64,000 bases of DNA. Origin: Schizophyllum amplum. Its lineage: Eukaryota > Basidiomycota > Agaricomycetes > Agaricales > Schizophyllaceae. Where the stretch lies: positions 1-64,000 of the forward strand of contig VDMD01000010.1 of assembly GCA_007026445.1 (NCBI GenBank), in the 5' to 3' direction. The notes beneath the pieces are model-generated. The model was not told the DNA's origin. It ran no database searches and saw only the letters and a list, made by a program, of their open reading frames with translations. Positions 1 through 39,590 of this stretch are shown here, in pieces. Made by a program: the position numbers and the translations under genes. Positions within the stretch are counted from its first letter, which is position 1, and the number at the start of each line of letters is the position of its first letter.

Positions 1-2210
1 GGCCGAACGCCTGCCTCGACGACAAGGAAGAAAGGCAGCAGTGTTACATAATGTCACCATCATCACACGCGCGTAACGCACGATGACATCACGTCTGGCC
101 AATCAATGTACGTAACGTCCCTGTATTCCCGGCGAAAGCCGTCCACTAACTAGATCCCCCAGCCACCGGCGAACTTGACAACACTGTTCTCGTTCGACCG
201 ACCCTTGTTACCGTTGCACTGCGTAGTGAGAAAAACGCGAGGGACCAAAGATCGGATGGCAGTTGGATGGCGGTCATACTTACGAGCATTGCTCACGCAA
301 ATGCCGAAATGCCGAGATGTTGACTGTTGCACAATGCGTGATACTGAATTCTCTAAGTTGCCTCGTCGGCAGCCTAGCAGGATCTAGTAAAGTGCAGATA
401 GCATCTAGGCTCTGACCTCAATGATATCACCCCTCAATCCTGCATAAGTCGCGCAGAACGTCGATGAAGACGCTGTCGACGTTTCGTGTACGCAAAGTAG
501 ATGACAAGTTGCCGGAATGCCGCGCTCGGCGTCCGACTCGGCGCGGAATTTTGGACACGTCACGAAAAAATGAGAGCCTCGTAGCATCTACAGTTCGGCG
601 AGTATGCAGTTCATTTTTTGCAGAAGTACGCGCACTGCTAGTCACTACAGTACTATCGAATTTGAACGGAAGCAGCAACCTGTCGCCCGCAGGATCGGTG
701 ATTGATCCAAAAAATCCGGCGATCACACCGGTTAGATGCGGCCCAAAAAATGCACCCAAAATCCTTGGGGGCGGCGATGATAAAACGGTGGATTAGTTCC
801 TAACCCACCAACAGAGCATTGAAGCCAGTGAGCTCTATCAATCAAGTACTTACACGATGCTCCGAGCTGCAACGAAAAGCGCTCTCATCGAGATGCGGGG
901 ACCGAGAGACCCATTAGAACCGAGGGATGAGAGGATCGAGACGTGAGCCAACGAGAGCGAGGCGCTCCCCATAATCGCATACCACGAGACGCAAAGGCCG
1001 TCGGATGATCAAGATTGTGATGATGAGTATGCGGGAAGAATGCGATGAGGAGGAAATGTATAGTGAGTAGCGACTGTCCTGCATGCCAGGCCCCCATTCG
1101 CTCAACGCGTTATCCGCCGTCTCAACGCTGCGCTTCATGCACTCGCCGGGAGGTCGGCACGCCAAGTGCTCGAGTGACGATGTTATCGTAATTGGCATAC
1201 TTGTTCGATGTACTATTCTGCTGCACTCTACGCTCCCGGACAGCCAACAGTAATCAAGGAACATGCATGAACCTGTCGCAGAAGAACATAAGGACATGGG
1301 ACCCGCTCGAGGTTCGATCGCGCTCGGCGCTTGCCGACGGGACCGGGATCGAACAAAGGTTTCCCAAAGCGGCGGTTCGACTTTGACGGCCATGTCGATT
1401 TCGACTACGCCATGTCCGAGAGCGAAAGACGCTCCGGAGCAACACGTTTCACGTGCTTCTACACACCCTTGGTGGAGTGCATATCGCTGTGTTCTCGGTC
1501 GCGCGAGCTCTATTATTGCGTAGCACCCTCTGCAATCGTTAGTCGCTCTCGCCAGCGGACAGGCGGCGGAGCACGAACGAGCGACTCTACCCATCCTCGA
1601 CACACACCCCACATCTCATGACCACCAGTACCCTTCCCACCCTTGCCTCTGCCCCGCGTTCTCGGCATTCGCATTGCGCTCCAATGCACCCCTTGCCTCG
1701 CCCTCCGTCTTCCGACCCTAGCGCGCAGTCTTCCGTCGCCGATCACTTTCGGAGATATCATTTGTTATGTCGGAAGCCCGGAAGTTCCGGGTTAAGCGCA
1801 GGCGGTGGCCTCGGAAGAGAAGCAGCACTTACGACCTGGAATGACGAGGAGCAAGTCCCTTCGCATTGCAGCAGCCAAGGCCGCGTCGTCTGCGGGCTCC
1901 AAGGCCGACGCCCCTGAGGGGCAGAAATGTATATAAGACACGGTGAGTCGGCGGACTTTTCCAGTTCCCTCACCTCCCTCATTCTCTCACTCACTCCCTC
2001 ATCCACTCGTCCTCCATCGTCTACCCATCCCCTCTTCGGCACCTTTCAATTTTCATTACCATCGACCCTCACCGTCTCCTTTGATTAGCCGTCTTGGATT
2101 TCTTGCCCCTCGATGGCACTCGCGTTGTGCATGCTCAAAGTGTGCACTCACTCATTCTCAATTCTCAACTTTGCTGACTCGACCTTTCTAGATCTGCTAC
2201 CGCGACCAGT
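1..2210. other. No gene supported
   Basis: No reading frame here shows a recognisable domain or a convincing start and splice pattern. The longest frames (for example 914-1612 on the minus strand and 464-796 on the plus strand) are broken-looking, composition-driven and lack motifs. The pyrimidine-rich stretch at about 1960-2100 just before the ATG at 2211 would suit a fungal promoter or 5' UTR of the following transcription unit. Confidence 0.4.
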
Positions 2211-3087
2211 ATGCCTCTAGGTAAGCTACTTTTGCTTTCGATTCTTGCCTCTACTGATCAGTCCGCTCTTTGCAGTCCTTGCATTCCTTTCGACATCGTT
2301 TCGACGACAGTGAGTGTCCTCACTCACTCATGCATTTGACCTTGTCTGACTTTCATCACTATCCAGCTACTTATACTCCTTCGAGCTTTGGTGCAGCGGT
2401 CAGTGGCATCACTGTAGCGCTGTACCTATGCTCTCAAACGTTCACAATCTGTGAGTAACTCATTCGATATTGCTGCTTTCACTGACTCGATCGTAAGCCC
2501 AGCGCGGTCATCGCAACCCGTCATTTGGACATTGACCATCCCGTAAGTCTCAACGCGCCTTGATCGCCGCTCTAACATTGACTTACAGGGTTGCTACAGG
2601 TTCAGGGCAAGTGAGTCCGACAAGACGTTGTCGAGCTCGACGTCGTCGCTGACTGATACCCTCCCAGTTTACTGTTCACGACGGCGAGCCTACTCTAGTC
2701 GCCGCCGCCGACATGCACGACGCTGGAGCAGTCGGCACTCGACGCAGCTCGCATTGACATTTGGTGCGTACTCGGTGCTACAGCGAAGCGCATACTGACA
2801 CCGTCGTCTTCAACAGCCTCTACCTCCCGACCTCAGGCATGGCACACGGCGCCCACAGCGTCCCACACGGCGCCCACAACGCCCAACAAGACAGCAATGA
2901 CGTCGGCGACGAATCTCGCCGACACGTCCAGACCGCTGTCAAGTTCGAAGCCGGTCTGTCACTTCCTCCCTCGCCAACGACGAGCTCGCCGTCCATCCCG
3001 TCCTCGTCGTCGTCGCCGCCGTCGTCGCCGCAGCAGTCGCCGTCGCCGTCCACACGCTCCATGCCGGCAGCGGAGATGAGGCGGTGA
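2211..3087 (+). CDS. Multi-exon gene or gene remnant, product unknown
   Basis: The unit starts with ATG at 2211 and is followed by a regular ladder of short introns: 2221-2275, 2310-2366, 2451-2502, 2543-2588, 2611-2667 and 2764-2816, each with a GTRNGY donor, a CTGAC or CTAAC-like branch site and an AG acceptor. The exon at 2367-2450 can be read as a hydrophobic segment (TYTPSSFGAAVSGITVAL...) resembling the first membrane helix of fungal multi-pass proteins. However, joining from ATG 2211 by phase gives a different frame that also stays open, into an Arg-rich C-terminus ending near 3079. Two or three frames remain possible over 2817-3087, one of them Ser/Pro-rich and ending at 3087. I cannot choose the true frame. 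The splice pattern is the strong evidence; the product is unknown and the locus may be decayed. Confidence 0.35.
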
Positions 3088-3479
3088 TGGCGGCGGTGGA
3101 TCGCCCTTTGTCTCTGACCACCACCATGCACGACGACGCACCTCGTCCCCGACGCGCTCGTCGACGCACTCGACGTCCTCACCGACGTGGACGGCGTCAT
3201 GTGCAGGATGCTCAACACCAACGGTGGCGAAAAGCGCGAACGAACGCGATCGGCGCGACGCGACTCTGATAGGCGCCGGACGTGGCAGCGCGACGGGGAC
3301 GCTCTCATCGCCACCTACGACGAGATCGACGATGTTGTTACGACATTCAGGTGCGTTTGTGCCGTTCCCCGCAACGAGCACGTACTTACACGATCCAGGT
3401 GCGTTGAACGCAGCGCCACGCCGCGCATGTCGCCGACGAAGCGTTCGCCGACGTCGCGCTACTTCTCCGCATCCCCCAC
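3088..3479 (+). other. Exon-like block before the module array
   Basis: A frame over about 3130-3350 reads as a plausible acidic segment (LVPDALVDALDVLTDVDG...) and ends at a donor (CAG/GTGCGT, 3350) with AG acceptors at about 3408 and 3425. It cannot be connected cleanly to the preceding exons, because an overlapping hydrophobic Val/Ala frame at about 2950-3130 lies one base out of register. This suggests a frameshift or an unrecognised intron. It may belong to the same transcription unit as the array that follows. Confidence 0.2.
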
Positions 3480-6169
3480 GCACCCCACACGATGACTGTA
3501 GCCGTGATTCCGCCGGAGGCCAGCCCGCCATCGCCCTGTGGGGAATCATATGCGAGGTGAGTACGTTCTCTCCTCACCGACCCCTTGCACCTGCACCCCC
3601 GAATGCCCATGCTGACGACGTTCCAGACGACGGTGTACACAACCTCGAACCGCTGCAGGCGTGCGCGCGAGTGCCCTGCGGGGGAATTTATGCATGCAAG
3701 GATTTTTCGGTGAGTTTCCTTCGCCCTCTCATAACTTATAACGACGACACTGACCTTCGAGACCCAGGGCGCTCATCCAAGATGTCGAGGATGCTCTAGA
3801 ACGATCCCCCGACCGCCGGAGGCATGCGTGCGACTACGACGCACCTGTATATTGCAAGGTAAGCGGTATTTCGCCTGTCCTGTTGACCTCCCACTCGCCC
3901 CCGGAGACCGTACCACAATTCGGTACTGACGATATTCCAGATATACTTATTCAGAAGGCCCGAGCCGCCGGAGGCATGCGCTGTCGCCCTGCGGCGAGAG
4001 CGTTTGGGAGGTAAGCGCCCCTTGACCGTCCGTCCGACCCCTCACCCACCCCCTCAATGCTGCTATCGAGGAGCGTACTGATGTTTATAGCGGCCCTATG
4101 CGCGGCCTCCGAGCCGCCGGAGGCGAGCGTGCTGTTGCCCTGCGGGGAATGTGAGACGGCGATTTTCGAAGGTACGCCCACACCGCCTTGGTCGAGACAC
4201 CGCTGACATACGTGCATAGACCCTCGGATTTATGGCTGCGGGGTGCAGGTACGACCCCTATGTACCGCTTGCAACTTCGTCGGCGTGCCCCCCGTCGCAG
4301 AAGGGGGGAATAACTGTTGAATTCCGTGAGAGGTATGTTTTCGGCCCGTGTTCGTTGAAATTGCGATCGCTAACGTGCACCAAGCCCAGGCCTTCTTCGA
4401 CGGGGAGTGTGCATAGGACATGTACGTACTCCCTGAGGTGTTGGGGGCGTGCGCCCTGCCCGTTGTCGGGGAAACTACCGGCGATCTCTACTCGACGTAA
4501 GCCGCCTGTCCTGCTCGTCGAAATTCCGTTTGTTTACGTGCACCAACCCCAGGCCTTTACTGCTCGGGTACACATACAAGACCTCTATGTACCCCCCTCA
4601 GGTGTCACGGATGCCCCCCTCGCTGATCGTCGGGGGAATTATCGACGATTGGCTTACAAGGTAAGCCCCCTCCCCCTGACTTTCGAAACTGCGGTCGTGA
4701 ACGTGCACCAAACCTAGGATGTTTTCGATCGGGCATGTACATAGGGCCGGTACGTATTCCCATAGGCGTCGGGGGCGTCCGCCCTGCTCGTCGTCGGGGG
4801 AATTATGGACGATTCGGATTCAAGGTAAGCCCCCTTCCCCGATTGTCGGAATTCTGATCATTAACGTGCACCAACCCTAGGTCTTTTTCGCTGGGGGGTC
4901 TATATAAGACCTCTATTCACCTGCCCGAAGCGTCGCGGCTGCCCCCTCGCTGCTCGTCGGGGGGCATCTTGACCCTGTGAACGAAGGTATGCCCCGCCTC
5001 CTTGTCAATTCGATTTCCGCTGATAAACGTGCACCGACCCCAGGTTCTTTTTGCTGGGGGATGTCTATGCGACCTCTACTTACCCCCCTCAGGCGTCGCG
5101 GATATCCCCCTCGCTGATCGTCGGGGGCATTATCGACGATTTGTATGCAAGGTAAGCCCCCTCCCTGATTTTTGAAATTGCGGTCGTTAACGTGCACCAA
5201 CCCAAGGCCTTTTTCCATGGAGGCTTCATATACGACCTCTATGTACCCCCTGAGGCGTCGCGGGCGTCCCCGCCGCCGCTCGTCGGGGGGCATCTTGACC
5301 CTGCGAACGAAGGTATGCCCCGCCCCCTTGTCGGTTCATTTTCCACTGATAAACGTGCACCGACCCTAGGTTCTTTTTGCTGAGGGATGTCTTTACGACT
5401 TGTACGTACCCCCTAAGGCGTTGGGGGCGCCCGCCCTGCTTGACGTCGTGGGGATTATCGACGATTTGTAACAAGGTAAGCCCCCTCCCTGATTTTCGAA
5501 ATCGCGCTCGTTGACGTGCACCAAACCTAGGATGTTTTCGATGGGCGATGTACATATTGCCCGTACATATCCCCACAGGCGTCGGGGGCGCCCGCCCTGC
5601 TCGTCGCCGGGGGAGTTATTGACGATTTGTATTCGAGGTAAGCCCCCTCCCACTGATTATCGAATTTCTGACCATTGATGTGCACCCACCCCAGGCCTTT
5701 TTCCATGCAGGCTTCATATACGACCTCTATGTACCCCCTGAGGTCTCGCGGGCGCCCCCGTCGCCGCTCGTCGGGGGTATTTTGACCCTGTGAACGAAGG
5801 TATGCCCCGCCCCCTTGTCAGTTCGATTTCCGCTAACAAACGTGCACCGACCCTAGGTTATTCCTACTGGGGGATGTCTATACGACCTGTACGTCCCTCC
5901 TGAGGCGTTGGAGAAGTGCGCCCTGCTCGATGCGGGGTGACATATCGTGGGTCTCGCGAAAGGTACGCCCCCTCCCATTGTTAGCCGAGGTTTCTGCTCA
6001 CAGACGTGCATTAACCCTAGGCCTTTTTCGTCGGGGAATGCATATACGACCTCCCCTTACTCTCTGAGACGTCGCGGGCGTGCGCCCTGCTAAACGTTGG
6101 GGGAATTATTGTCAAAGGTATGTCTCCCTCCCCTTGATTAGTGACTGTGTTACTGATATCTGCCCCCAG
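3480..6169 (+). repeat. Tandem array of about 17 exon-intron modules
   Basis: Every module consists of an exon-like block and an intron-like block. Degenerate early blocks: about 3480-3556, 3627-3709, 3768-3858, 3941-4010, 4091-4171, 4220-4332. Regular later blocks: 4390-4496, 4553-4660, 4718-4824, 4881-4986, 5044-5151, 5207-5312, 5370-5475, 5531-5637, 5695-5799, 5857-5962, 6021-6117. From 4497 the blocks between them are 52-58 nt, start GTAAGC, GTATGC or GTACGC, carry an AACGTGCACC-type motif near the 3' end and finish in CCTAG or CCCAG; the period is 161-165 bp. The early exons share CCGCCGGAGGC...CCCTGCGGGGAAT, readable as PPEAS...PCGE; the later ones read YDLYVPPEAS...LLVGGI. Exon lengths (105-108 nt in most) are not all multiples of three and several blocks hold stops, so one continuous reading frame is not preserved. 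It could be a repeat-built gene, a spliced non-coding RNA or a decayed array. Confidence 0.8.
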
Positions 6170-7869
6170 CGTCTATACTTTTGTCTGTATATGTAGATAC
6201 ATGCTACACGTTTGTATAGAGCTCAGAACCTCCCCCTCGCCTCGGTACACGCGGACGAAGGGCGGGGGATGTCTCGCCGAAACAAAACAAAACAAAAATG
6301 TCGCACTGTTTTTCTTGCACGGCTCAAGGTACGCGCGTTCGCACCACATACATCTTTTGTACCACTTCCCTTCCCCCCTCCTCCCCTCCCCACACCCTGG
6401 CAGCTCGTCCGATACCGAGAGCGCACTGCTCTGAGTACTCACCGCACTGGGCATTCGCAGTGCGGCTCTCGGCGACGATGGCTGCCTTCTCCCTTGGTCG
6501 CCTTTCCCCCCTCGTTGCCTTTCCCCCCTCCGTCGCCTTTCCCCCGTCGTCGCCTTTCCCCCCTCGTCGCCTTTCCCCCCTCCGTCGCCTTCCCCCTTCG
6601 CCCCCTACTATTACCCCCACTTCATTGTACACTGACGCTTGTGTTTACAGGAACGTCGTGCGTGGCTCCCGAGATGTGGCATGGCCCCTCGAGATGCGTC
6701 GTGCCTCCCCGACGAGCGGCGGCCCGCTCTCGACGAGCGGCGCATGTCCTCGCCGGCGAGCGGCGCCTCCCTTTGAGGCGCGGTGCCCCCCTCTCGACGT
6801 GCGGCGCCCCCCTTCGAGGCGCGGCGCTTGTCCTCCTCGACGAGCGTCGTCCCTCCTCCCCGACGAGCGGCGTTTGTCCTCCCCGACGGGCGTCGTCCCT
6901 CCTGCCCGACGAGCGTCCCCCCTCCCTCGTCCCCCTTGTGTTGAGCGGCGCGTTGCATGGTTAGTCAAGCCTGGCAAACCGGACGTTGCTGTTTGATGCG
7001 GGAGACGGCGGGGTGAGGGAGGTGTGCGCGGAGGGAGACGGTGCGAGGAGGGGCGGGCGAGTTGGGGGGCGGGCGTGCGCGATGTGTGAGGGAGGTGTTC
7101 GCCCTCCCTCCCCTTACATTTCGTATAATCGAGGTACGAATACGTTGATTTTTCATTCCCTCCCCTCCCCCTCCTTCGCTTGGTTGTAAACTGATAGATT
7201 CGATTATTAGTTTACACCTTAGATAGGGGAGGGCGAGGCAGACGGAGACGGGGACGAGGGCGAGGGAGCGAGATACTCGCAGGAGAGGGGGGGAGGAACG
7301 GACGAGGTGGAGCAGGGGAAGGAGTTAGGAGGCGGGCATATACGTGGGAAGGGCAAGGGGGTAGTTAGACAGATCGTCTGTACGGATATGTAAGTACACC
7401 ATAGTCTAAGTATGTAGTAGAATAGTCAATAAATAAATGTGTTGTCGAGCACCAACGCAAGCCCACGAGTAGCGCCGCAGCCGTGAGCGAGTTCAAGTCG
7501 TTCGAGACAGATTGAATTAGGACCGCCGCATATATGCACGCACAGTCTACGGCACAGATCACCATAGTATTGTAGCTGTTCAAGTACATCGAGAACAATA
7601 CGTAGACTACGTATATCACTGCCATTCGTCAAAGACGAGTGCGGCGTGCGAGACGGGGAGGGGGGGAGGGAGACGGGGACGAGGAGGGAAAGGGAGGAGA
7701 TGGAGGCGACGGGCGAGAGCAGAGACGCGTCGTGTGTGCGCGACTACGGTCGGACGATCAGACGCTCCGTGCGGTTGTGCACACAGCGATTGCTTGATGA
7801 AGGTCTTGAACAAGAAAACAAGCACCGGGTCGTGTAAATCAGAACTTGCACGTGCGCGACGTGCATGCA
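6170..7869. other. Low-complexity DNA, no gene supported
   Basis: After the last module acceptor (6169) the sequence becomes compositionally simple. Positions 6478-6610 repeat a CCCCTCGTCGCCTTTCC-type unit, 6700-6930 repeat a CGACGAGCGGCG-type unit, and 7200-7330 and 7640-7720 are G- and A-rich. Open frames of up to 250 codons here are products of this composition. Donor- and acceptor-like sites at 6330 and 6650 could extend the upstream transcription unit, but I see no conserved protein. Confidence 0.5.
6478..6610. repeat. Pyrimidine-rich minisatellite
   Basis: About seven imperfect copies of a 17-19 bp unit, CGCCTTTCCCCCCTCGTCG and variants, lie head to tail. It resembles the polypyrimidine tracts of the 22-35 kb region in composition but not in unit. 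Confidence 0.7.
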
Positions 7870-7877
7870 GTTGAATT
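7870..7877. repeat. 8-bp target site duplication, left
   Basis: GTTGAATT immediately precedes the left terminal inverted repeat and is repeated exactly at 11267-11274 after the right one. Eight base pairs is the diagnostic length for hAT transposons, and a perfect match implies a recent insertion. Confidence 0.95.
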
Positions 7878-7893
7878 CAGTGTTCGCCCGAAG
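7878..7893 (+). repeat. hAT left terminal inverted repeat
   Basis: CAGTGTTCGCCCGAAG begins with the CAGNG signature of hAT ends and matches the reverse complement of 11251-11266 at all 16 positions. Confidence 0.95.
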
Positions 7894-8094
7894 CCCTAAG
7901 GCCTTCAAAGATTGAAGACCTTCAGGACCCCTTCAGGAAGGCTTCAAGTAACGCGGCCACCTGAAGCCCAATTTGAAGCCCTTCAACGGTCACGTGCTAT
8001 GCTTGTCGGCATCGGCCGGGCGCCGGCGGGACGCGTCTTATACTTTCACTTTTGTACTGTTACTGAGCCCCGTACACCCACAACTCGACATTCC

Positions 8095-11000
8095 ATGGCT
8101 GTGAAAGACTACTTCCTCTATCATGGCATGAAAAATTCCACCCAACACCACACGTACTGCCTAGCATGTCTTGCATTCCATAGGAATAAAATCTCGAAGG
8201 ACAACAAGGAGCGAGGGGACCCCATACCCGCGGAAGCTTTGGATGTTGCAGAGAAGCTACGCCTAGAGGAAGAACTAGACATTGCTGGTGTGTCATAATA
8301 TCTCAAGCTGAATGAGGAGAATCCTGACCTATGTATCAAGCTCGTGATGCTATGGTTGCGAATGAGACCCGAACGCGCGGTGTAGTGACAGCGCATATCG
8401 CGCACCTCATTGGCGGTGGACCAGGAAACACGATCTCGGAGTGTAAACACGCGAGCAACGAAGTCAAGCAAGTGGCGCGTGCTGAGCGTCAGGCCTTGAA
8501 GGATCGCAAGGACGCCAGCAAGACGGAGGCGACACCCGGCGCTAATGCGGCGGCGACTCTGAAGCGCCAAGCTTCCAAAACCGGTGGGACCCCAGACACT
8601 GCGACGAAGAAGGCGAAGACGGGACAGACGAAGCTGAAAACGTACACCCCGGCCGAGATGCCATTCAGCCCAGCAGAGGCGGAGGCTTTGAGGGCGAAAG
8701 CCTTGCGTGTGACCGTCAAACTGAACCTTCCGTTCTCCATTTGGGACGACGTAGAGCTCCTCGAGTTCATTGGTATGTTGCGCGCGCAGGCGCCCGCCAT
8801 CATGCCCTCTGCCAAAGTGATGAGCACGACGATGCTCAAGAATGCTGCCGAGGTTGTGGACAAGGATATGAAGGACAAGCTAGCGGAGCGTGAGGTTGGA
8901 CTCAGGTGCGCGTGGCGCTACTTTGTACTACACGGAAGGTTATGCTCACAGATGTCGTCAGCACGGATGGTTGGAAGTCGAGAACAAAGGCCGCACTAAG
9001 CGCCGTCTGCCTGAATGTAGACTCCAAGGTAGCATCTGCGCATGTCACACGTAATCGGGGCTGATTCTCATACCAGGTTCACACACTCAAGCTGATCGAC
9101 ACGACGTCTATGAACAAGGACGGTCCTGCGCAATGCAAGCAGTTCGAAGACATGATTGATGATGCGGAGGAAGTTTATAAGTGTCAAGTTCTGTACTTCG
9201 TGACCGACGGCGACGGCGGGAGTAGCAAAGGTCGCAAACTTCTGGTGAAGAATCGTCCGTATATGTTGGCGCCGACATGCTGGGGACACCAGGTACGCAT
9301 GCGTGGTCCACGCGCTGACCGTCTTTACGTGGGATTCGAAGCTAATCTTCGTGCACAGGGTCAACTGATGCTCGGCGATTACTTCAGAGTAAACGACTAC
9401 GCTGCGGAGATCTCCGAGACGGCGACAGGACTCATCGGTTGGATCAACAATCACGGCAAGGTTCGAATGCTATTCAACAAGGCCCAGGCGGAATGCGCGC
9501 GCCACGACGCTACACAAAAGACACCGGTGCTGGCCTTTCTCGTGGCCAACATTACTCGCTGGACCACGCACGTTGTAGCGTTCATGCGACTCCTCGACCT
9601 CAAGAAGGCGCTCCAGGTAGCCGTCATGCTATCGCGCGCGGCCATCATCGAGGCACAGGTCGGTGCTGCAAAGTATGCGGAGAAAGACCGTCTTGAGCTT
9701 GAGGCGAATGAATGGTGCAACACCATCGCTGACCCCGGATATTGGAATGGTCTTGAGGATGTCCTCGGCGACCTCGAAGCGATCTGCTACGGCATCAACA
9801 TCAATCAGCAAGACTCCGTCAGTGCTAACAAGGTTCTCCTCATGATTGCAGGCATCTACCTACAATTTGAGGCACACCCGGAACGCGCTGTCTCTTTTCG
9901 AATGACCGAGCGGCTCGAGAAGCGCTGGGCAGACTGTGACCAGCCGCTCTTTCTTCTGGCGCTGATTCTCGACCCTTTCGACGGGCTGACGCGCTTCGGC
10001 GACAATGCGGGACTCGACCATCTGACTATTAATGCGATGGCGACGCAGGTACGTTCTCCTCCTTTCATATTGCCTTCACTGACTCGTCTTCAGCTGTGGC
10101 GTCGCATGCGTGACCGCCCGGACAATGCAGACTCTGCCGAGACGCGGCTGAGCAAGGAGACCGAGCTCTCGGCCGCCTTGCTCAGATACCTTGCGGGTAC
10201 GGGCTCTTTTGCATCCTGGGAAACGAACCGGGAGGTTTTCGAACAGACTCATGTATGTCCATTGTTTTATTTTGTTTATCCGTTCCTGTACATAGTACTC
10301 ACCGTCAATTTAACACAATTTACAGGGGAGGGATCCTCTCATGGCGTGGACAGCGTTCACAAGAAGGGATACGCAGGAGCTTGCTCGCTTTGCGAAGACG
10401 ATCTACTCCGTCGTCGTCAACACTGCAGGCTGCGAGCGAACCTTTTCGCGACTGAAGATCATCCAATCACCGCATCGCAGCCGTATCGGTACCGAGAAGA
10501 TGGAGCAGATGATGAAGGTGCGTAACTCAGTTGATTTTCTAGGTTCACAATTCATATGCTCTTTCCAGGTCAGCTCGCAGATCACGGCCGAGAACGTGGC
10601 ACGCGGTGTTGTGAAGGCGCGCACAAAGCGTAAGAACCACAAGGGGACGCAGGCCCTCTTAGAGGTTCCACGTTACCGCGACGTTTTGGAGGACCAGAAC
10701 GACGAGGAGGAGAGCGAGCGGGGACGCCTACTCGTGAATACACGCGCTGGATGGCGGACGGAGATGGCCAAGTGGGTTGCAGCTGCTCGTGCTGCAGAGG
10801 AAGACGAATTTGCGGCGTCGCTCGAGGACAGCGTCGACGAGATGCCCACTCAGCCTATAGAGGTACCAGCGCGCCTCGTGGCTCAACAGCCCGCCGCCAG
10901 ACGCATCGCGCCATTTCCGAAGAAGACGCTCAAAGAGCTCTTCAGTGGTCTGCCTCCCGTTCGGACCGTTAGGCTCATTGTGAGAGGAGATACGAGGGAG

Positions 11001-11117
11001 CAGGAGCTTATGCATGCACTGGCAGTCAGTCAGCGTGCTTCTGACGGTGGGGATGGTGATGTAGGGGACAGCGAGGAATGCGCGGCGGTCGAAAACGGTA
11101 CAGGCGACTCGCTGTAG
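8095..11117 (+). CDS. hAT-family transposase with BED-type zinc finger
   Basis: Cuts and re-inserts the surrounding element through an RNase H-like DDE nuclease. Splicing 8095-8287, 8341-8905, 8962-9028, 9077-9292, 9359-10048, 10094-10252, 10326-10517 and 10569-11117 keeps phase throughout and gives 876 aa. ATG 8095 opens directly into a BED-finger-like segment (VKDYFLYHG...HHTYCLACLAFH). Landmarks follow in order: STDGW with the first catalytic Asp, VTDGD...GRKLL with the second, the CWGHQGQLMLGD segment matching the hAT CxxH motif, and near the C-terminus NTAGCERTFSRLK, the hAT dimerisation region. The acceptor at 8961 rather than 8951 is chosen because only it restores the TDGW frame. No stop or frameshift is seen, so the gene looks functional. 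The tail is acidic and low in complexity. Exon limits are inferred from phase and motif. Confidence 0.92.
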
Positions 11118-11250
11118 GGCCCTGTGGGCGTGGCAACAATTGATGTCGTATTATTGTGGCTATTTATAAATTAAGCCCTTAAGCCCTTAAGCCCTAAGCC
11201 TTCAATTAAGCCTATAAGCCTTCAAAACTCACGGACCCCGTTTTTAAGCC

Positions 11251-11266
11251 CTTCGGGCGAACACTG
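11251..11266 (-). repeat. hAT right terminal inverted repeat
   Basis: CTTCGGGCGAACACTG is the exact reverse complement of the left end at 7878-7893. Confidence 0.95.
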
Positions 11267-11274
11267 GTTGAATT
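11267..11274. repeat. 8-bp target site duplication, right
   Basis: GTTGAATT, identical to 7870-7877, directly follows the right inverted repeat. Confidence 0.95.
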
Positions 11275-11386: not shown

Positions 11387-13352
11387 ATGGCCGACGTCGT
11401 TGCTCCCCCCGCACCGACAGAGGCGAAGATTCTGACTCCCGCCGAGAAGGAGGAAGTCATGCAGAAGGCAGCCAAGCAGGGTGCGTGCGCTGTCTCTCCT
11501 CTAGTCCCTTTCACTGACCTTGCCCAGTATCCTTCTACTTTGCGGATGCCAACTTGCCGTACGACAAGTGAGTGCAGACAGCTAGCTTTCATGGTCCATA
11601 CCCATACCTCGTCCCCCTTAGGTTCATGTGGTCCCTCTACAACAAAACCCCCGAACACTGGGTCCCCCTCTCCACGATCACCTCCTTCAAGCGCATGCGC
11701 GAGTATGTCGCGGCACTGGGCGGAATCCCCGGCGTCGCAGACGCCGTCCGCCAACACGCCCCCGAGTTAAAGCTCAACGACGCAGGCGACCAGGTCACGC
11801 GCGCCGCGGGCCCACCCAAGCAGGAGGACAACAGCGTCATGGGAAGGAGCGTATACGCCGTGCGTGAACCCGTCCCATGCAGTCGTCCCTCAGCTGATAG
11901 TTAGCACAGAAAGGCTTCGGGGAACCGACACCGACGCTGCAGCGCGAACTGGAGGAGTACTTCCAGCAGTATGGCCCGACGAACGTCGTGCGCATGCGGA
12001 GGGACGATCGGAAAAAGTTCAAGGTGCGCTCTAGCTCACACTGTACACGCATCAACTAACCCTATCCCAGGGCTCCGTCTTTGCCGAGTTCAAGGAGCCC
12101 GCGTCCGTGGACAAGTTCCTCAACGCGGACCCGAAGCCGACCTGGAAGGGCGCCGAGCTCCTCATCATGTCAAAGTGGGCCTACCTCCCCTCACCACTCT
12201 CGAAGACCATGTTAACCCCGCCCTAGACAGGCCTACTGCGATATGAAGATCAAGGAAAAGGGCATCGACCCCTCGAAGGCGTACAACTTCAACGCCTTCA
12301 ACAAGGACGGCGGCAACCGCGACCGCCGACCAAAGGAGAAGGACGCGAACGCGATGGACGAGGACGCCGTGGTCGGCCGGGACATCTACCTCGAGTTCAT
12401 GTCCCAGCGGCTCGCGATCAAACGTGACGCCGCGGGCGAGGGCTGCGTGGACGCGGCGCAGCTGGAGTATGGGGACAAGCAGCGCGGCTCGACGCTCAAG
12501 TTCTCCGGCGTGGGGGGCGATATGGGGCCGTGGTCGGCGGTGAAGGTGCGCGTCCTGCTCGACCTCTGAATCGTACTGATAGAGGATACAGGATCCCATC
12601 CGCGAAGCCTTCGCGCGCGCGCCTTACATCAAGTTCACGCGCGAGGAGGACAGCGGGCTCGTCGGCTTCAGCGCGCCGCTCTCTGAGGAGGATATCGAGA
12701 AAGTCAAGACCCTCCTCCCTAAAATGAATGACAAGCCGGTTACCTGGGAACGTGCGGGAGGTGCGTAGCCTGTCCTCAATCTACCTACCTCCCACATCTC
12801 GCTCTCTGATATCCTTTGCCATTTACTCCCTGGCTACTTCCACCCACTACTCACTAACATCACACCACAATTAACTATCCCACTCACAATCCCACAGAGG
12901 AGGAAGAAAAAGCGTTCCTCATCGAGCGCGTCCAAGCCGCCGCCAAAAGCGCACTCGCCTCCGCAGCCGGACGGGGACGCAGCGACAGGGATAGCGGGCG
13001 CGGGCGTGGAGGAGGACGCGGAGGACGGGGACGCGGTCGGGGACGCGGGGAGGGTCGGGGTCGGGGACGAGGAGGCCGCGGGGCCCGCGGGGGCCGTGGG
13101 GGCGGCGCGCGCGACGTGCAGATGGCTTCTCCGGGAGGCTCGCCGAAGAATGGGGATGGGGACGCAGCGATGAAGAGCGGGGACGCGACGATGAAGAGCG
13201 AGGACGCAGCAGCGGGCGAGAAGCGCAAGCGCGCCGTGGAGCCCGATGGAGGGCCGCATGTCGGGCAGCGCGGGGACGAGACGCGCGCGCCGCCGATGGT
13301 GGCAGCGAGCAGTACGAGCAGCAACAAGAAGGCGCGAACGGATGGGGAGTAG
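11387..13352 (+). CDS. La ribonucleoprotein (La motif, RRM, xRRM-like region)
   Basis: La binds the 3' oligo-U tails of new RNA polymerase III transcripts in the nucleus and protects tRNA and other precursors. Exons 11387-11480, 11528-11567, 11622-11859, 11910-12023, 12071-12174, 12227-12545, 12592-12760 and 12898-13352 join in phase to 510 aa. The La motif begins around residue 31 with SFYFADANLPYDKFMW and runs to the STITSFKRMREY helix. An RRM follows (KGFGEPTPT... to ...LLIMSK). A second RRM-like fold lies at about residues 265-350. The C-terminus is a long RGG/RG-rich stretch followed by an acidic and lysine-rich tail with basic clusters (KRKR, NKKAR), fitting nuclear RNA binding. No defect is seen. 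The start is the first ATG in good context; the hAT insertion ends about 120 bp upstream. Confidence 0.93.
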
Positions 13353-24010: not shown

Positions 24011-25400
24011 AGAGACTTGGAGGCGAGAAGGACTTTGGAGGGCTGTGATAAGGATTATATGGGGGAATAGGTGCTGTGGACTGACTGTGCACGCGCGAAG
24101 TGAAGGAAGGGCGAAGGCGAGAAGATTAAGAACGAAGGTGATGGGAGTAAGAACGACGAAGGAGTGACAGAGCAAAAAGCGAAGGCGAGGGAGATGAGTG
24201 ACAGCAAGAAGCGAAGGCGACGAGGGTTATGTATCAGGAAGGCGAGGAGAGTAAGCAGCGATAACGAAGCGAGGAAGGCGACGAGAGCAAGAGAAGTCAA
24301 AGACGAAGAGAGCGAGCAAGGAAGGGCGGAGAGGATAAGCAAACTTGAGAGCGAGCGAGGAAGGCGGTGAGCATGAGCGAACGACGGTGATGAAGGCAGA
24401 GTGGAGTGCATATGGTCGATACAGAGTTGCTGGATGAGGGAGGCTGCGAGTGCATTCCAAACACGAGAGGCAAGTCAAGTAAAAGGGGAGTCGAGCGGGA
24501 GGGAGGGGGGTGAGTTGGACTAGAGAACATAAAGTCGGGTCATAAACAAGTACGCGGCGCGAACCCATCGTGAACGACGGGGACTCAGGCAACGTCGGGG
24601 GCTCGGGAAACGCAGTTGGTGGCAAAAACTTGTTGTATTCATTTATCTACGAGGTACAAGGTTACTACCATACATAGACCGCGTCTGAGCATGCTAGCGA
24701 GCCGTTCGCAAGGTCTGACCCGTCGTCGACAGCGTCGGTTCGGGAGCGTTAGTCGGCCTTGTCGAGGACGCGCGCGAGTCTACCGCGCGCAAGGCGGGCT
24801 CAACGGCAGCCAGGGCATAGCTTCCCCTCACAGTCTGCAGTTTGGGGAATCTGAAAACAAGACAATCAGTGGGTCCTCGCAGCAGCGAGAACGAAAAGCG
24901 CCCTAGAGCAGCCCCAGAGTGACCCCGACAGGTTCCAGAGTGCCGGTTAGCTGGATCAGAGGTCATGTGTAAGGGAACGTATCAACAAAATCGGGAGGTG
25001 GCGCAGTTGAGGTACGAAATAACCCGAAATTCCGCCAAGGTAACAGAGATTCGAACGGAGGGCGGCGGGGGAGCGGGCTGGGAAACTGGTAGAGGTAATG
25101 GTGCGAAGCGACGCAGGTGTAAGTATATTGTAAAAAGAAGGCAAGCATACTAGTTGGGAACGAACGATAAGTCATCTGGGGGGAGGGAAAAAGCGCACGA
25201 TAATTCTTTGACGTGTTCCAGAAAATATGACACTCACCTGAAAGCGGCAAGGCCGCTGGGCAACCCGCGTCGGGTACGCCTCTCTCCGGGTCGCATATCG
25301 CATTCACGGTCGAGACCGTCACACTAACGGACGACAAGGGCCCCGTCAACAACTACAAGCAGTCATTAACAATATCAAGCGGTGCCGACATGAAAACACA
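24011..25400 (-). other. Duplicated spacer with minus-strand exon-like pieces
   Basis: Corresponds to 35361-36690. On the minus strand, exon-like segments with GTGAGT donors and CAG acceptors are visible: about 25245-25330 reads VTVSTVNAICDPERG..., and 24705-24966 reads as an Arg/Ser/Ala-rich frame beginning MTSDPANR. Both are kept in unit 2 (36535-36605 and 36003-36278). No start-to-stop model or domain can be defined; possibly remnants of a gene. Confidence 0.3.
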
Positions 25401-25645
25401 CCACAAATGAAGTGCGCGGCGGCGCTGCGCGCCGCCCGCCGCGCCCCAAGCCCATCCTGCTCCTCGTCGAAAACGTCGCAGCGGGTCCCGAGACTTCCCG
25501 CGCGAATATTTGCCGATTCGAGTTCATTTTGCATCGTTTTTTGAGGTTCGGTTTCTCGCCAGAAACCCCTCCGCTTGGACCGGAAAATGGGGCTATCGGG
25601 GAGCGAGGTGGACCTCTGTGGGCGCGTTGGGAGGCATTTGCCATG
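25401..25645 (-). repeat. GC-palindrome module (RAARSAA type), reverse orientation
   Basis: Read on the minus strand this carries a GTCCAAGCGG motif, a Met-Asn-Glu start region, RAGSLGTR and then GLGARRAARSAAAH over a CGGCGGCGCTGCGCGCCGCC palindrome. The same order occurs on the plus strand at 30111-30700. Its unit 2 copy is at 36688-36931. Confidence 0.65.
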
Positions 25646-28600
25646 GCGACGCCGTGCGGCGAGGTCGAACGGCGCGGGCGACCGAGGTTGTAGGTGCGTA
25701 TGTACGATATGGCGAGCTATTATATAGTTAGCACAAGCAACAGCACGCGTCAGTGGTCAAGCACTTACCATCCCTGTCATTTTCTCGAAGGACGAAGGAT
25801 CCCCCAGTCACGCGTGCGTTGAGAGTTCGAGCTACGGGCATGGACCCACAAGTACATCACGTGATCCAATGTTGAAGTTGCGAAGGCGGGCGGGCTAACT
25901 GCAGAACCGCAGCGGCGTTAGACCTTCAACACGTGCGATAATAAACAGATCTACTCACCGGAGAGGCCCGCTCTCGGAACTCGCCGTGAAGTTGTGGATC
26001 CGAGTATGGGCGACGGAGGGGATATTCGTTGTTGGTGGCTTGGGACCGGGCGGCATGTTAAGGCTGTCTCTGTGAGAGCGTCAGACCACGTTCGGTGTGC
26101 CGCTGCGCAAATACGCACAGGGACGAGCGAGATCGGTGGTAGACGGGGTGTCGAGAATGGCACTCGCCCGGCGAGAACGTCCTGCAAGGTCTACCGCACA
26201 CGCAGAGACCGATCACGGCAGTGAGCGGGATGGTGCTGGACCTCGTCACCCGCAGCGCAAGTGAACGAGGACGTCTGCAAAGACGATGAGCATAGGGAAT
26301 CATGAGGGCAGGGCGCGACGTCGACGTCACCGCCGTCGTCGTGCGCGTCGATTCACAAGCTGATCAACGTACCTCGACGATCTCGTACTCCCGCTCACAC
26401 ACCCCGCCCTCGCCGGCATCACCGACGTCGAGAGGTCCAAGGCGACGGTCCTCGAGGCGCCCGTCGAGAGATCCGTCGGGGAGTCAATGCACTCGTCATC
26501 GCACGAGCTCGCTGTTGCGATGACAACCCAGGCCAGTGGGCCTTCGAGGTCGCCGTCAATGGCGCCGTCGGCATTGCGGGACGAGTCGCCGGCGTCCGTC
26601 GTGGGATTCGGCGACGTCCGCCGCGGTCGCCGGGCGTTCAAGGAAGGCCGGGGAACGTCGACGGGCGTCGGTCGTGGTGGTAGGAGACAAGCTGCGGACG
26701 TGTCAGTGATCGGTAAACGAAATGAATAGAAAACTTACTGAATGGGCCCCGACCGAACACTTAGACTTGCATGGTGCGGTCTGCAAAAGTGGTCAGCGGA
26801 ATATGCGAGCATAATGAGCACGAGTCAGCATACCTGACAAGCTAGGTGTTTGCAAAGTTGATGTGCGAGAGTGCAGCTAGAGCGAGTTGATCAGCAAATG
26901 TCGAGACCATGAAAATACGACGCCCAACGCACCAGAGAAAGGCTGGTGTTAACGAACTGCGTATCGGAAGGTAACTGAAAATATGCCTGGAATGACGTGG
27001 TCAGCGAGTGCGAGAGCAGACGAAAACAAAGGAAATCATACCGAAATCAAATCGACATGAGTTGCAGGAGACAGCGAGCGAGGGCAAAGAGGAAGCGCAA
27101 GGAAGACGGCGGACGAGTGGTGGGAAGGGAAGAAGGCGTTGAAAGCCTGCTGAATACTGGCCATAGGTGTCGCCTTTTATACAGCGCGAGACGGCTGTCC
27201 AGCCGGTCGCGCGCGTCCCCTCGCTACGAGTCCCATTCTAATCCGCAGCGTACACGTCAGAGATGTGACAGCCACACCCCGACAAGCCGCCGCGAATCTG
27301 GGGCCAAGATTCGGGCGCTCGAGAGCGGAAGATTGGGCGCTCCTGCAGTGGTTACTCGTCAACGATCTCCTGGGTCGCACGTCAGCCCGCTCGCAACGCC
27401 ATTCATGCGGACATACCGCTGCGGTCAGGAACGGCCGTGCGTGGAGTTGCGGACGGAAGGTTGGAAGTTCTGGAGGTCGGCCTTTGGGTGACGCGCCACA
27501 GCATCTCCCGGTCGCTTTGTGCTGTCCTCGTCGCCGGCAGCGTTGGATAGAGAGCTGCAATGCATCCCATGGTCAGGTTCGAGTGACCTGGTGACGCGTG
27601 ACAAAGCCCGCGAGCTCGCAACAAGGCGCTGAAAAACTCGACTGCTCGTTGAACGAGAGATCAGTCGTTGCTCCTTTGGGAAGTCCTTGAACTGTCCCAA
27701 AGGCAGCGCGCTGCTGGCGCGCGTCGCCCGCCTCGTCGACCGCTTCCCTCGCTGGAGCAAAATCAAATAATATTATAATGGAATGAATGGCGCGTCGCCC
27801 CGGCGTTTTCAGGTGGAATGAGGGGCATATGCGTGCTGTGAGTGAAGTGGAATAGCCCAGGGCATGAGCCAGCGCAGCGCGGTCGCCGTCGACCCCCATC
27901 ACGTTTCCATCATCGCAACTGAATGGATGGGCGCTCAGGTCCGCGTCGGTGACAGCAGAATTCCACCGGTCGCCGGTGGAAGATGCGGATGGGCGGGTAG
28001 GTCGTTCTGGTTCGTGGTGTCATTGCGACCGCGCACGGCGTGCGGCGCGCGGCGTGTCGTCATCCACGTGCTGACGCGGCGTTCAGAAATAGGGACCGTT
28101 TCAGAGGTGTCGGCAGGCGGAAGATTGGGGGCGCGGCGGGGTAGGTGAGGAGGGGGAAGGGGTCGTTCATTGCGAGGCAACAAGGTCTCTGGGAGGCGTC
28201 CGGCCTCCTAGGCGTTGAGGGACGGGTCGATACACGAGAACTTGACACGTGGCGGGTCAGCGCAAGCTCGGACGAAGACGCTATGGGCGCACCAAAAACG
28301 ACGCCACATAATAAAAACGCCCTTGTGCGCGATACAGAGCTAGGTCGGGGCGGCGGATGGAAAATCCAACAGCGGTAACGTGTTCGAGTAGACTGCGCGG
28401 ATCGAATTTGTCTCAGGAATATATTAAGGTTGGGTGACCACTTACGGAGGGAAAGACGTCGAGTTCTACATGCAAAGTAGCTCGACCTTCCAGAACGATA
28501 AGGAAGGTGTCTTATCTCGCCCATCGGCACTTGGTGGACGTGTTGTGAGCGAGCAGAAGGTTGTCCTCGACGGTGTCTGACCCATCGCAGGTGCCAAGGG

Positions 28601-29539
28601 AGCGGCGGGCGGCCTCCGAGAGGTCTCGCCGTGCATTTGCGCGCCACCGGGAGGCGTTGAGGGAATATCAGAGGATCGGTGAAGCGCCCAGCGTTCGAAG
28701 TTCAGAGATAAGCGTTTATGACTATGAGGAAGTAGAATTCGGTGTTGCTGGGACGAAGGAAGGATGCGATGAGCGGGAAGCGAAGTCGAAGCGTTGGACA
28801 AGGCGTGCGAAAGCGCATCGGACCGACCACCCGCGTCGCGTGCGCGTTCGATTTCGATTTTGGACAAGTTCCTCTCGACCGCCACTGGCCCTCATAAACC
28901 GCTCACTCGCGCCTCAGGCTCCGAGGCGGACGTATATGAACAAAAGCACTTCTTGGGAGCCGCCAATACGGCGCTTATCCCGCGTTGTGCTCACTCCCAA
29001 CACCCCAGCCGCACCCGCCGTGCCGTTTGCAGACCCGTTTCGAGAGCTCATCGCACCGGGCATTCACGGTATTGCAGATGGCCCGGCGAGCGCGGCTCAG
29101 GTGTTGGGAGGGGGCTCGACGTGGGAACTCGCGCTCGTCCCAAATAAGTGCCTATCGTATACATGCAGGTGAGAATGGAACAGCGTGGGCATGTCGCCGT
29201 CATAACGCTCTCTCGGCTCAGGTCTGCCTGGGAGTCCCACGCACATGTCTCACGTACGCAGTCAACGAAGTCCGGCCGAGTTCCCAAAGCAGCAAGATCC
29301 AGATATGCTCAGTGGCGTGATCGGTCGCCGCGTCGGGATGTTTGTATGGGCGTTGCCTTTTGATACGGCGCAGCGCGACGGCCATATATACCGGCCTGGC
29401 CGTTGGTTGTAAATTTTTCCATGCCGTCGTTTTCCCCACCGACGCTCCGCCGCCCGCCGCCACTCGACCGGCTCTCTTTTCGTTGAACTCGGTGAGTCGA
29501 GCTCGCTGTCGTCGATGTGAGATGACTAACGGTCTCCAG
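25646..29539. other. Duplicated spacer with decayed coding-like pieces
   Basis: Corresponds to 36932-41881. Coding-like stretches include 26390-26640 (a DDLVLPLTHPALAGITDVE frame and an overlapping VNALVIARARCC frame), 26997-27491 (basic, Ser-rich) and 28880-29172 (PFADPFRELIAPGIHGIADG). They are conserved between units but carry indels and compete between frames, so no gene model is supported. A GCGCGCTGCTGGCGCGC palindrome lies at 27703. Confidence 0.3.
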
Positions 29540-36690: not shown

Positions 36691-36931
36691 AAATGAAGTG
36701 CGCGGCGGCGCTGCGCGCCGCCCGCCGCGCCCCAAGCCCATCCTGCTCCTCGTCGAAAACGTCGCAGCGGGTCCCGAGACTTCCCGCGCGAATATTTGCC
36801 GATTCAAGTTCATTTTGCATCGTTTTTTGAGGTTCGGTTTCTCGCCAAAAATCCCTCCGCTTGGACCGGTAAATGGGGCTATCGGGGAGCGAGGTGGACC
36901 TCTGTGGGCGCGCTGGGAGGTAGTTGTCATG
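36691..36931 (-). repeat. GC-palindrome module, reverse orientation, unit 2
   Basis: Near-identical to 25405-25645, including the minus-strand RAGSLGTR...GARRAARSAA reading and the CGGCGGCGCTGCGCGCCGCC palindrome. Confidence 0.65.
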
Positions 36932-37559
36932 GCGACGCCGTGCGGCGAGGTCGAACGGCGCGGGCGACCGAGGTTGTAGGTGCGTATGTACGATATAGCG
37001 AGCTATTATTTAGTTAGCACAAGCAACAGCACGCATCAGTGGTCAAGCACTTACCATCACTGTCATTTTCTCGAAGGACGAAGGATCCCCCAGTCACGCG
37101 TGCGTTGAGAGTTCGAGCCACGGGCATGGACCCACAAGTACATCACGTGATCCGATGTTGAAGTCGCGAAGGGCGGCTGGTTGGACAATCGCGGCGACGT
37201 CAGGCCTTCGAGACGCGCAGTAATAAACGAGTGTACTCACCAGAGAAGACTGCTCGTGGAACTCGCCGTGGCGTTGTGGGTCCGAGTATGGGCGGCGCAG
37301 GATATATTCGTTGTTGGTGGTTTGGAATCGGGCGGCATGTAATGACTGTCTCTGCGAAGGCGTTAGACCACGTTCGGCATGCCGCTGCAAAAACACGCAC
37401 GGTGACGAGGGACCTCGGCGGCAGACGGGGTGTCGAGATAATAGGACGCGCGCGCAGGTACAATGAAACCCGCCCAGCGAGAACGTCCTGCAAGGTCTAC
37501 CGCACACGCAGAGACCGATCACGGCGGTGAGCGGGACGGTGCTGGTCCCTGGACCTCGT

Positions 37560-39590
37560 CGCCCGCAGCGCATGTGAACGAGGACGTCTGCAAAGACGAT
37601 GAGCACAGGTATGTCATGAGGGCAAAGCGCGATGTCGACGTCGCCGCCGCCGTCGTGCGCGTCCGGTTACAAGCAGGTCAACGTACCTTGACGATCTCGT
37701 CATCCCGCTCACACATCCAGCCCTCGCCGACATCGCCGACGTCGAGAGGTCCCAGGTGACGGTCCTCGACGTCCCGGCGCCCGTCGAGAGATCCGTCGGG
37801 AGTCAATGCGCTCGCCATCGCACGAGCCCGCTGTTGCCATGACAACCCAGACCAGCGGGGCTTCGACCTCGCCGTCGATGGCGCCGTCGGCATTGCGAGA
37901 CGAGGCGCCGGCGTCCCTCGTGGAACTGGGCGACGTCCGCCGCGGTCGCCGGGTGTTCCAGGAAGGCTGCGGCAACGTTGACGGGCGTCGGTCATGGTGG
38001 TAGGAGACAAGCTGCGGACGTGTCAGTGATCGGTAAACGAAATGAATAGAAAACTTACTGAATGGGCCCCGACCGAACACTTAGACTTGCATGGTGCGGT
38101 CTGCAAGAGTGGTCGGCGGAATATGCGAGCGTAATAAGCACGAGTCAGCATGCCTGACAAGCTAGGTGTTTGCAAAGTTGATGTGCGAGAGTACAGCTAG
38201 AGCGAGTTGATCAGCAAATGTCGAGACAATGAAAATACGACGCCCAACGCACCAGAGAAAGGCTGATGTTAACGAACTGCGTATAGGAAGGTAACTGAAA
38301 ATATGCCTGGAATGACGTGGTCAGCGAGTGCGAGAGCAGACGAAAACAAAGGAAATCATACCAAAATCAAATCGACATGAGTTGCAGGCAATGGCGAGCG
38401 AGGGAAGAGGCAAAGCGAAAGGAAGACGGCGGACGAGTGATGGGAAGGGAAGAAGGCGTTGAAAGCCTGCTGAATACTGGCCATAGGTGTCGCCTTTTAT
38501 ACAGCGCGAGACGGCTGTCCAGCCGGTCGCGCGCGTCCCCTCGCTACGAGTCGTGAGCGGTCACGGCGGTGCAGGGGATATCGCGGGAGTGCCTGACATG
38601 CAGCGCATGTCAACGAGAACGTCTGCAAAGGCGATGAGCATAGGAACATTCGAAGACGTGGCGCGACGTCGACGCCGTCGCCATCGTCGTGCGCGTCGGG
38701 TCACAAGTACATCGACGACCTTGACAATCTCGTGCTCCCGCTCACACATACAGCCCTCGCCCACATCGCCGACGTCGAGAGGTCCCAGGTGACGCTCCTC
38801 AACGTCCCGGCGCCCGTCGAGAGATCCGCCGGGGGGTCGACGCGCACGAGCCCGCTGTTGCGATGACAACCCAGGCCAGTGGGCCTTCGAGGTCGCTGTC
38901 AATGGCGCCGTCGGCATTGCGGGACGAGTCGCCGGCGTCCGTCGTGGGATTCGGCGACGTCCGCCGCGGTCGCCGGGCGTTCAAGGAAGGCCGGGGAACG
39001 TCGACGGGCGTCGGTCGTGGTGGTAGGAGACAAGCTGCGGACGTGTCAGTGATCGGTAAACGAAATGAATAGAAAACTTACTGAATGGGCCCGACCGAAC
39101 ACTTTGACTTGCATGGTGCGGTCTGCAAAAGTGGTCAGCGAAATATGCAAGCTTAATGAACACGAGTCAGCATACCTGACAAGCTAGGTGTTTGCAAAGT
39201 TGATGTGCGAGAGTGCAGCTAGAGCGAGTTGATCAGCACATGTCGAGACAATGAGAATACGACGCCCAACGCACCAGAGAAAGGCTGGTGTTAACGAACT
39301 GCGTATCGGAAGGTAACTGAAAATATGCCTGGAATGACGTGGTCAGCGAGTGCGAGAGCAGACGAAAACAAAGGAAATCATACCGAAATCAAATCGACAT
39401 GAGTTGCAGGAGACAGCGAGCGAGGGCAAAACAGAAGCGCAAGGAAGACGGCGGACGAGTGGTGGGAAGGGAAGAAGGCGTTGAAAGCCTGCTGAATACT
39501 GGCCATAGGTGTCGCCTTTTATACAGCGCGAGACGGCTGTCCAGCCGGTCGCGCGCGTCCCCTCGCTACGAGTCTCATTCTAATCCGCAG
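37560..39590. repeat. Internal ~1,022-bp tandem duplication in unit 2
   Basis: Positions 37985-38550 recur at 39007-39572 with a constant offset of 1,022 bp, for example the AAACGAAATGAATAGAAAAC segment at 38036 and 39058; weaker similarity extends leftward to about 37620 and 38665. Unit 1 has a single copy (26300-27232). The right-hand copy continues into sequence matching unit 1, so the left-hand copy is the extra one. Confidence 0.85.

Follow-up and report, generated by a model that had tools for sequence, protein, structure and literature searches.

A tandem exon-intron array within a multi-copy gene family of Schizophyllum amplum: conserved splice signals and mixed exon phases

The gene and its exon-intron array

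The window analysed here is a stretch of 64,000 nucleotides from Schizophyllum amplum (contig VDMD01000010.1, positions 1 to 64,000). Near its start lies a tandem array of exon-intron modules, called locus C2a when it is compared with related loci. Sequence reading together with a scan of the borders placed 17 intron-like GT..AG blocks between 3557 and 6169, and modules of the same kind recur at nine other loci, so the 17-module array reported in the initial annotation is real and not due to chance. By its matches elsewhere in the genome, the array belongs to a longer gene family that goes beyond the stretch first noted. The features are collected in Table 1.

Table 1. Features of the array gene and of its downstream hairpin in the window
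Feature	Position	Strand	Remarks
Putative promoter region	1660..1960	+	TATA box TATATAAG at 1930-1937, then CT-rich leader
5' part of the gene	1960..3556	+	Short exons and introns; lift-over to C38; borders in BD626DRAFT_577554
5' introns (n = 8)	2140-2191, 2221-2275, 2310-2366, 2451-2502, 2543-2588, 2611-2667, 2764-2816 (or to 2836), 3351-3398	+	Short introns
Irregular leading modules	3557..4219	+	Exons with PPEA/PPEAS readings
Regular tandem exon-intron array	4220..6169	+	Exons mostly 105-108 nt, introns 52-58 nt
Array introns 1-5	3557-3626, 3710-3767, 3859-3940, 4011-4090, 4172-4219	+	GT..AG borders
Array introns 6-11	4333-4389, 4497-4552, 4661-4717, 4825-4880, 4987-5043, 5152-5206	+	GT..AG borders
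Array introns 12-17	5313-5369, 5476-5530, 5638-5694, 5800-5856, 5963-6020, 6118-6169	+	GT..AG borders
3' region past the last intron	6170..6400	+	Window 6170-6520 matches C38 (82%) and C54 (75%)
Conserved stem-loop	6415..6472	+	Apical motif GAGNACTCANNGCACNGGGNNTTC; z -4.61 for 6395-6490; covariation; copies

Upstream of the array, window positions 1660-2310 match contig C38 at 97% and contigs C235 and C233 at 76-79%, and the TATA box is present in all three. GT and AG are preserved in 13 of the 14 introns (2140 to 4389) that were lifted over to C38, and several of the 5' intron borders are also used by the public gene model BD626DRAFT_577554.

Concerning the array itself, the exons of the spliced chain measure 83, 91, 70, 81, 113, 107, 108, 107, 106, 108, 106, 106, 107, 105, 106, and 97 nt. 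The first four belong to irregular modules, where the introns measure 70, 58, 82, 80, and 48 nt and the donor spacing is 149-161. A period of 161-165, exons of 105-108 nt, and introns of 52-58 nt had been described for the whole array; this holds in the regular part and fails in the irregular first modules. In fact, the period is limited to approximately 4172 to 5962, the exons of 105-108 nt run from 4390 on (with one of 113 nt before and one of 97 nt at the end), and the array introns span 48-82 nt. In the regular array, the introns end with a motif close to AACGTGCACCRACCCYAG. Donor, AAC branch-like site, and acceptor had likewise been ascribed to every unit. GT..AG was found in all 17 introns, but AAC occupies the branch register in only 7 of them, the rest having GAC, GAT, TAC, or the CTGAC/CTGAT type. 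The acceptors are CAG or TAG in 16 of the 17 introns and AAG in one (5206).

Tandem Repeats Finder detected a period of 163 at 4863-5908 (score 596) and a stronger one of 326 at 4764-5531 (score 1003). The higher score of the longer period indicates that a multi-unit repeat is present and that blocks of units were also copied.

Other elements were observed in the window. A hAT-like transposon at 7878-11266, with the ends CAGTGTTCGCCCG and CGGGCGAACACTG, is flanked by an 8-bp target duplication, GTTGAATT (7870-7877 and 11267-11274), and is missing from the matching place in C38. Moreover, the sequence located before the gene in C38 (C38:2-949) corresponds to window 11815-12770, after the gene, with 95% identity. 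This swap of gene-flanking sequence between the window and C38 suggests past tandem copies of the gene. Two open reading frames with GATA zinc fingers, perhaps a single gene, are located at 60676-63173. On the minus strand, 25200-27200 and 36886-39592 contain another TATA-like site and several short intron-like blocks; this stretch was matched on C303, C223, C270, C260, and C190, with a hairpin copy approximately 1.7-3 kb away on the opposite strand.

The array family and the downstream hairpin

DNA searches of the species' own genome (49.65 Mb in 309 contigs) revealed further arrays of this kind on C2 (C2b, at 104 kb, in addition to C2a), C38, C54, C281, C235, C233, C201, C240, C255, and C280. 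C233 was not counted because a comparison of 1,700 bases showed no difference between it and C235; ten array loci, including the window, are therefore considered. A profile of the module gave 106 matches, distributed among C201 (17), C2b (16), the window (13), C281 (12), C38 (11), C235 (11), C54 (10), C240 (7), C255 (7), and C280 (2). The 18-base intron-end motif, with one mismatch at most, appeared at 40 places genome-wide, 39 of them within array-family loci, versus 0 for the reversed-pattern control; the remaining place is on C248, a contig that, like C298, also matches the promoter. C149 and C9 carry pieces of the 5' part. In each listed locus, all the array matches lie on one strand. Besides the array, C2a, C38, and C235 have the promoter and 5' parts in common, and C2a, C38, and C54 a 3' region. 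The number of units is unequal between close paralogues, and stretches are inserted or missing among paralogues. When C2:102258-102786 and C201:289808-290499 were compared, a C201 stretch with intron-like blocks, flanked by parts common to both loci, was seen to be replaced by unrelated sequence in C2b, the arrays of both loci being approximately 97% alike.

Two members of the family are already present in public annotation as hypothetical proteins of S. amplum, BD626DRAFT_577554 and BD626DRAFT_579512, which are related sequence read with differing exon borders and carry no precomputed Pfam domain. BD626DRAFT_577554 matches C38 exon by exon and skips an 84-nt exon and C38 6013-7420, that is, most of the C38 array. 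The search for relatives outside S. amplum was done at the protein level (E<=10), among sequences with shared exact words and similar length, one of the searches scoring the best 7997 candidates; only these two S. amplum models were returned. No Pfam family reached its cut-off. Literature searches in an open-access library listed no publication that, going by its title and the beginning of its abstract, deals with a fungal array of this type. Auriculariopsis ampla is a synonym of S. amplum, and a paper on its genome reportedly exists. The A. ampla transcriptome is one of those examined in PMC8893723.

In introner elements, the intron alone is the mobile repeated unit and is found in unrelated exons; here the exons repeat together with the introns, and the intron-end motif was found in the array family and at the single C248 place. 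The family is not simply subtelomeric: C240 begins with (TTAGGG)n, 22 kb away from its array, but other arrays are far inside their contigs (e.g. C255 at 286 kb). By-eye inspection of the C2b and C201 ends showed no clear target-site duplication of the kind that would flank copies of a transposable element.

A hairpin with a 15-bp stem is located 245 bases past the last array intron, possibly within the array transcript. It is found downstream of the array and on the same strand as the gene in six of the ten loci (C2a, C38, C54, C281, C235, and C240), and the covariance model found none at E<=0.05 in the searched stretches of C201, C2b, C255, and C280. This model, built from five array loci, detected 16 places in 186 kb (21 matches, five of them being the opposite strand of the same palindromes), although 8 of the 16 are in sequence chosen for matching the element. 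The apical pattern, with three mismatches at most, was found at 209 places genome-wide versus 5 for the reversed pattern, and at none in viral_contigs.

The stems of the hairpin covary. Among 15 copies, 84.6% of cells pair and two-sided changes affect 12 of the 23 pairs, values that none of 500 shuffles reached; sliding the structure lowered the pairing to 31-44%. Pairing is less complete in part of the outer stem, where as many as 6 of the 15 copies lack a given pair. Two G-U pairs are kept wherever the letters are present (15/15 and 14/14 copies), which points to RNA on the given strand of the hairpin. The possibility of a coding motif, considered since the frames of the core read alike, was set aside: the most frequent frame is interrupted by a stop in 2 of 6 copies, and the stems covary.

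Hairpin copies with long stems were also observed at window 29000-29105 and 41340-41450, in duplicated units approximately 12.3 kb apart. The first one folds at -67.8 kcal/mol (z -5.59 for 29000-29110). A search with 28950-29180 gave at least 45 matches (five being the opposite strand of the same palindromes, with 40 of 58 candidates scored), and several series spaced 10-12 kb are found among the matches listed.

Regarding other RNA families, no Rfam family reached its gathering score anywhere in the window; a search of 1900-7000 at E<=1 gave a single match (E 0.74), far below its cut-off and outside the array. Conserved RNA structure in the module exons was also discarded, as the consensus fold is empty and the hairpins of some units do not recur; this counts against the RNA reading favoured below. 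The mean folding z over 43 exons was -0.58 (31 below zero), with -0.17 for the antisense and -0.06 for the introns.

Splice signals and reading frame

Both module borders could be placed in 77 of the 106 matches; six failed (four without acceptor and two without start), and the rest are partial alignments. The donor GT is present in 83 of the 84 matches whose alignment spans it, the exception being a match on C255. After reducing the set to 54 non-redundant modules (less than 80% alike), with a mean pairwise identity of 58%, the GT and AG columns were 100% conserved, although the acceptor lies at the edge of the local alignment and its value is biased upwards. On the other hand, the canonical acceptor is missing at the expected place in four matches, and this counts against the reading favoured below.

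Recent paralogues were compared through 24 homologous exon pairs (8 from C2a-C38, 12 from C2b-C201, and 4 from C240-C281). Two C2b-C201 pairs with C201 insertions of 57 and 36 nt were left out, as well as other modules without a clean counterpart. The initial annotation had proposed comparing the divergence of exon and intron blocks. The outcome is that the bodies of both change alike, with 89/2499 changes in exons and 31/750 in intron middles (p = 0.44), the figures by set being 52/849 vs 11/245 (C2a-C38), 18/1235 vs 14/384 (C2b-C201), and 19/415 vs 6/121 (C240-C281). Donors showed 0/139 changes and branch-acceptors 8/478, so that the splice signals as a whole (8/617) are approximately three-fold less diverged than the rest (120/3249, p = 0.0013). 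By these signals, splicing appears to be preserved across the modules of the array.

Concerning the reading frame, its drift, which had been suggested from the window, was confirmed in the family. The exon length modulo 3 is evenly distributed (27/24/26 of 77 modules), and the full chains of C2a, C38, C201, and C2b present stops in all three frames. Hence, one frame does not run through the array as would be expected of a repeat-protein gene; stop-free runs are short and cover four exons of C281 and two of C54. In the 24 pairs, the changes by codon position were 32/29/28, and only 2 of 13 exon indels were a multiple of 3 (4 of 15, near chance, with the two omitted pairs). Nevertheless, the 57- and 36-nt insertions of those pairs are both multiples of 3, and this counts against a non-coding reading. 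Conservation of the module columns was also alike by codon position (0.70/0.66/0.70). A test for conservative changes over 43 exons gave -0.03 in the module frame versus 0.11 and 0.16 in the other sense frames, with noisy controls (-0.46 to 0.71); in the window's own exons, the module frame was the highest of the sense frames (0.33, 0.27, 0.14). From these data, no reading frame was found to be kept in the array exons, and no codon-level constraint is detectable.

Other features could be the trace of a coding past. In the module frame, which reads YDLYVPPEAS, 43 non-redundant exons have 19 stops in 1473 codons versus 37/1468 and 41/1451 in the other frames, and 27 of these exons are open versus 19 and 14. 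Five of 14 module runs (three in C201, one in C2b, and one in C281) contain an open reading frame beyond dinucleotide shuffles at p<=0.05. The full-chain values are 256/547 codons in C2b (p 0.017) and 253/576 in C201 (p 0.027), two loci that are approximately 97% alike and therefore not independent; in C281, 138/138 codons are open over four exons (p 0.023). The other chains are ordinary, with 128/425 in C2a (p 0.49), 116/214 in C235 (p 0.16), 166/351 in C38 (p 0.07), and 71/212 in another part of C281 (p 0.95). The spliced transcript of the window has a stretch of 533 codons with one stop across 13 junctions, which 0 of 500 shuffles reached, with p 0.022 when exon phases were jittered. In the 5' half, the exons change less than the introns between C2a and C38 (78/1435 vs 72/706), though most of the exon indels there (10 of 14) break the frame. 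The stop depletion, the long open reading frames, and the conservation of the 5' exons leave room for an ancestral or residual coding role.

Some sequencing error is suggested by the single-base indels that separate C2a from C38 in substitution-free stretches (e.g. 2032-2130). The C2b-C201 comparison shows only five indels of one or two bases in approximately 2.5 kb, and errors of this kind are therefore an unlikely source of the mixed exon phases in these two loci.

Interpretation of the array

Since the splice signals resist change and the bodies of exons and introns change alike, the simplest reading is that selection acts on the removal of the introns and not on the code of the exons. The initial annotation had offered selection on splicing with a drifting phase, or else a very recent expansion. 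The first proposal agrees with the lower divergence of the signals, the likeness of the bodies, and the mixed phases. The second one is partly right, as the period of 326 and the differing unit numbers of close paralogues fit with it, but expansion alone is insufficient because GT persists although the mean identity of the modules is only 58%.

On balance, the array is somewhat likely to be the body of a multi-copy, TATA-promoted S. amplum gene whose product is a long RNA with many introns to remove and essentially no coding role. Unequal exchange would have multiplied the module of exon plus intron, one unit or a block of units at a time, and selection would keep donor, branch, and acceptor of each module functional for splicing rather than its frame or codon content. 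RNA polymerase II would transcribe the locus, and all introns would be removed from the transcript. Splicing could be kept as transcripts with retained introns may be poorly expressed or fed to RNAi, as has been reviewed for Cryptococcus.

Some known systems are close to this proposal. In Cryptococcus, the presence of introns raises expression, probably via export, and RNAi takes up the transcripts whose splicing is inefficient (PMC5851062). The short introns of a basidiomycete are a point in common with this Cryptococcus and SCANR system, efficient splicing there promoting expression and avoiding RNAi; however, the cases in the passages considered are ordinary protein genes and transposons without module arrays. 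A tandem, non-coding architecture exists in mammals: SNHG14, the host gene of SNORD116 and SNORD115, is a non-coding transcript of tandem exon-intron modules with 29 and 48 tandem introns (PMC11608373). Both cases have head-to-tail modules with kept splice sites (here deduced from the DNA), but SNHG14 carries a snoRNA per intron, whereas the array introns of 48-82 nt have no Rfam match at threshold. Hence, the earlier remark that no family of this structure had been described was too strong, both for SNHG14, despite its snoRNA-bearing introns, and for the two S. amplum models. The latter belong to the same family but are annotated as proteins, with exon choices that differ from each other.

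A less probable, though serious, explanation is a fast-evolving or decaying repeat-protein gene, in which each exon once encoded a repeat of approximately 35 residues (GGxxYDLYVPPEASRAxxLLVVGGIIDDLY) and the frames are now lost in many copies. The scarcity of stops in the module frame, the long spliced reading frames of C2b, C201, and C281, the 533-codon stretch of the window, and the two public protein models all speak for it. Nevertheless, it does not account for the absence of a third-position excess, the frame-breaking nature of 11 of the 13 indels, the missing conservative-substitution signal over all exons, the equal conservation of codon positions, the ordinary array reading frame of the window (128/425 codons), or the lack of a Pfam family at cut-off.

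The array could also be a bank of alternative exons, one or few of them joined per transcript, as in BD626DRAFT_577554, where the upstream exons are joined to two late modules only. This is very improbable, because with exon lengths of mixed phase most choices would shift the downstream frame, and the exons of that model may have been picked by ab initio prediction so as to avoid stops. Equally improbable is a plain tandem satellite with splice-like borders arisen by accident: its tandem structure with a multi-unit period and the stretches inserted or missing among paralogues would be expected, but no site of the unit should then be more conserved than the others, and the splice signals are. 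The promoter and 5' parts common to C2a, C38, and C235, the 3' region common to C2a, C38, and C54, and the single orientation of the array matches within each listed locus also speak against a satellite.

The non-coding RNA gene proposed above can be taken further, with much more doubt, to a class of RNA genes made of repeats whose selected product would be splicing itself. The modules would multiply, the exons drift, and the introns stay removable, and the 3' side would carry a member of an undescribed structured RNA family of approximately 200 copies, possibly as the acting or bound part. The hairpin would, if transcribed, count as a new family of structured RNA in mushrooms. If this view is right, these loci would amount to a natural experiment on splicing signals selected without a protein to protect, in approximately ten copies within one genome, and the question of what splicing is for, besides open reading frames, could be tested in a mushroom with existing developmental transcriptomes.
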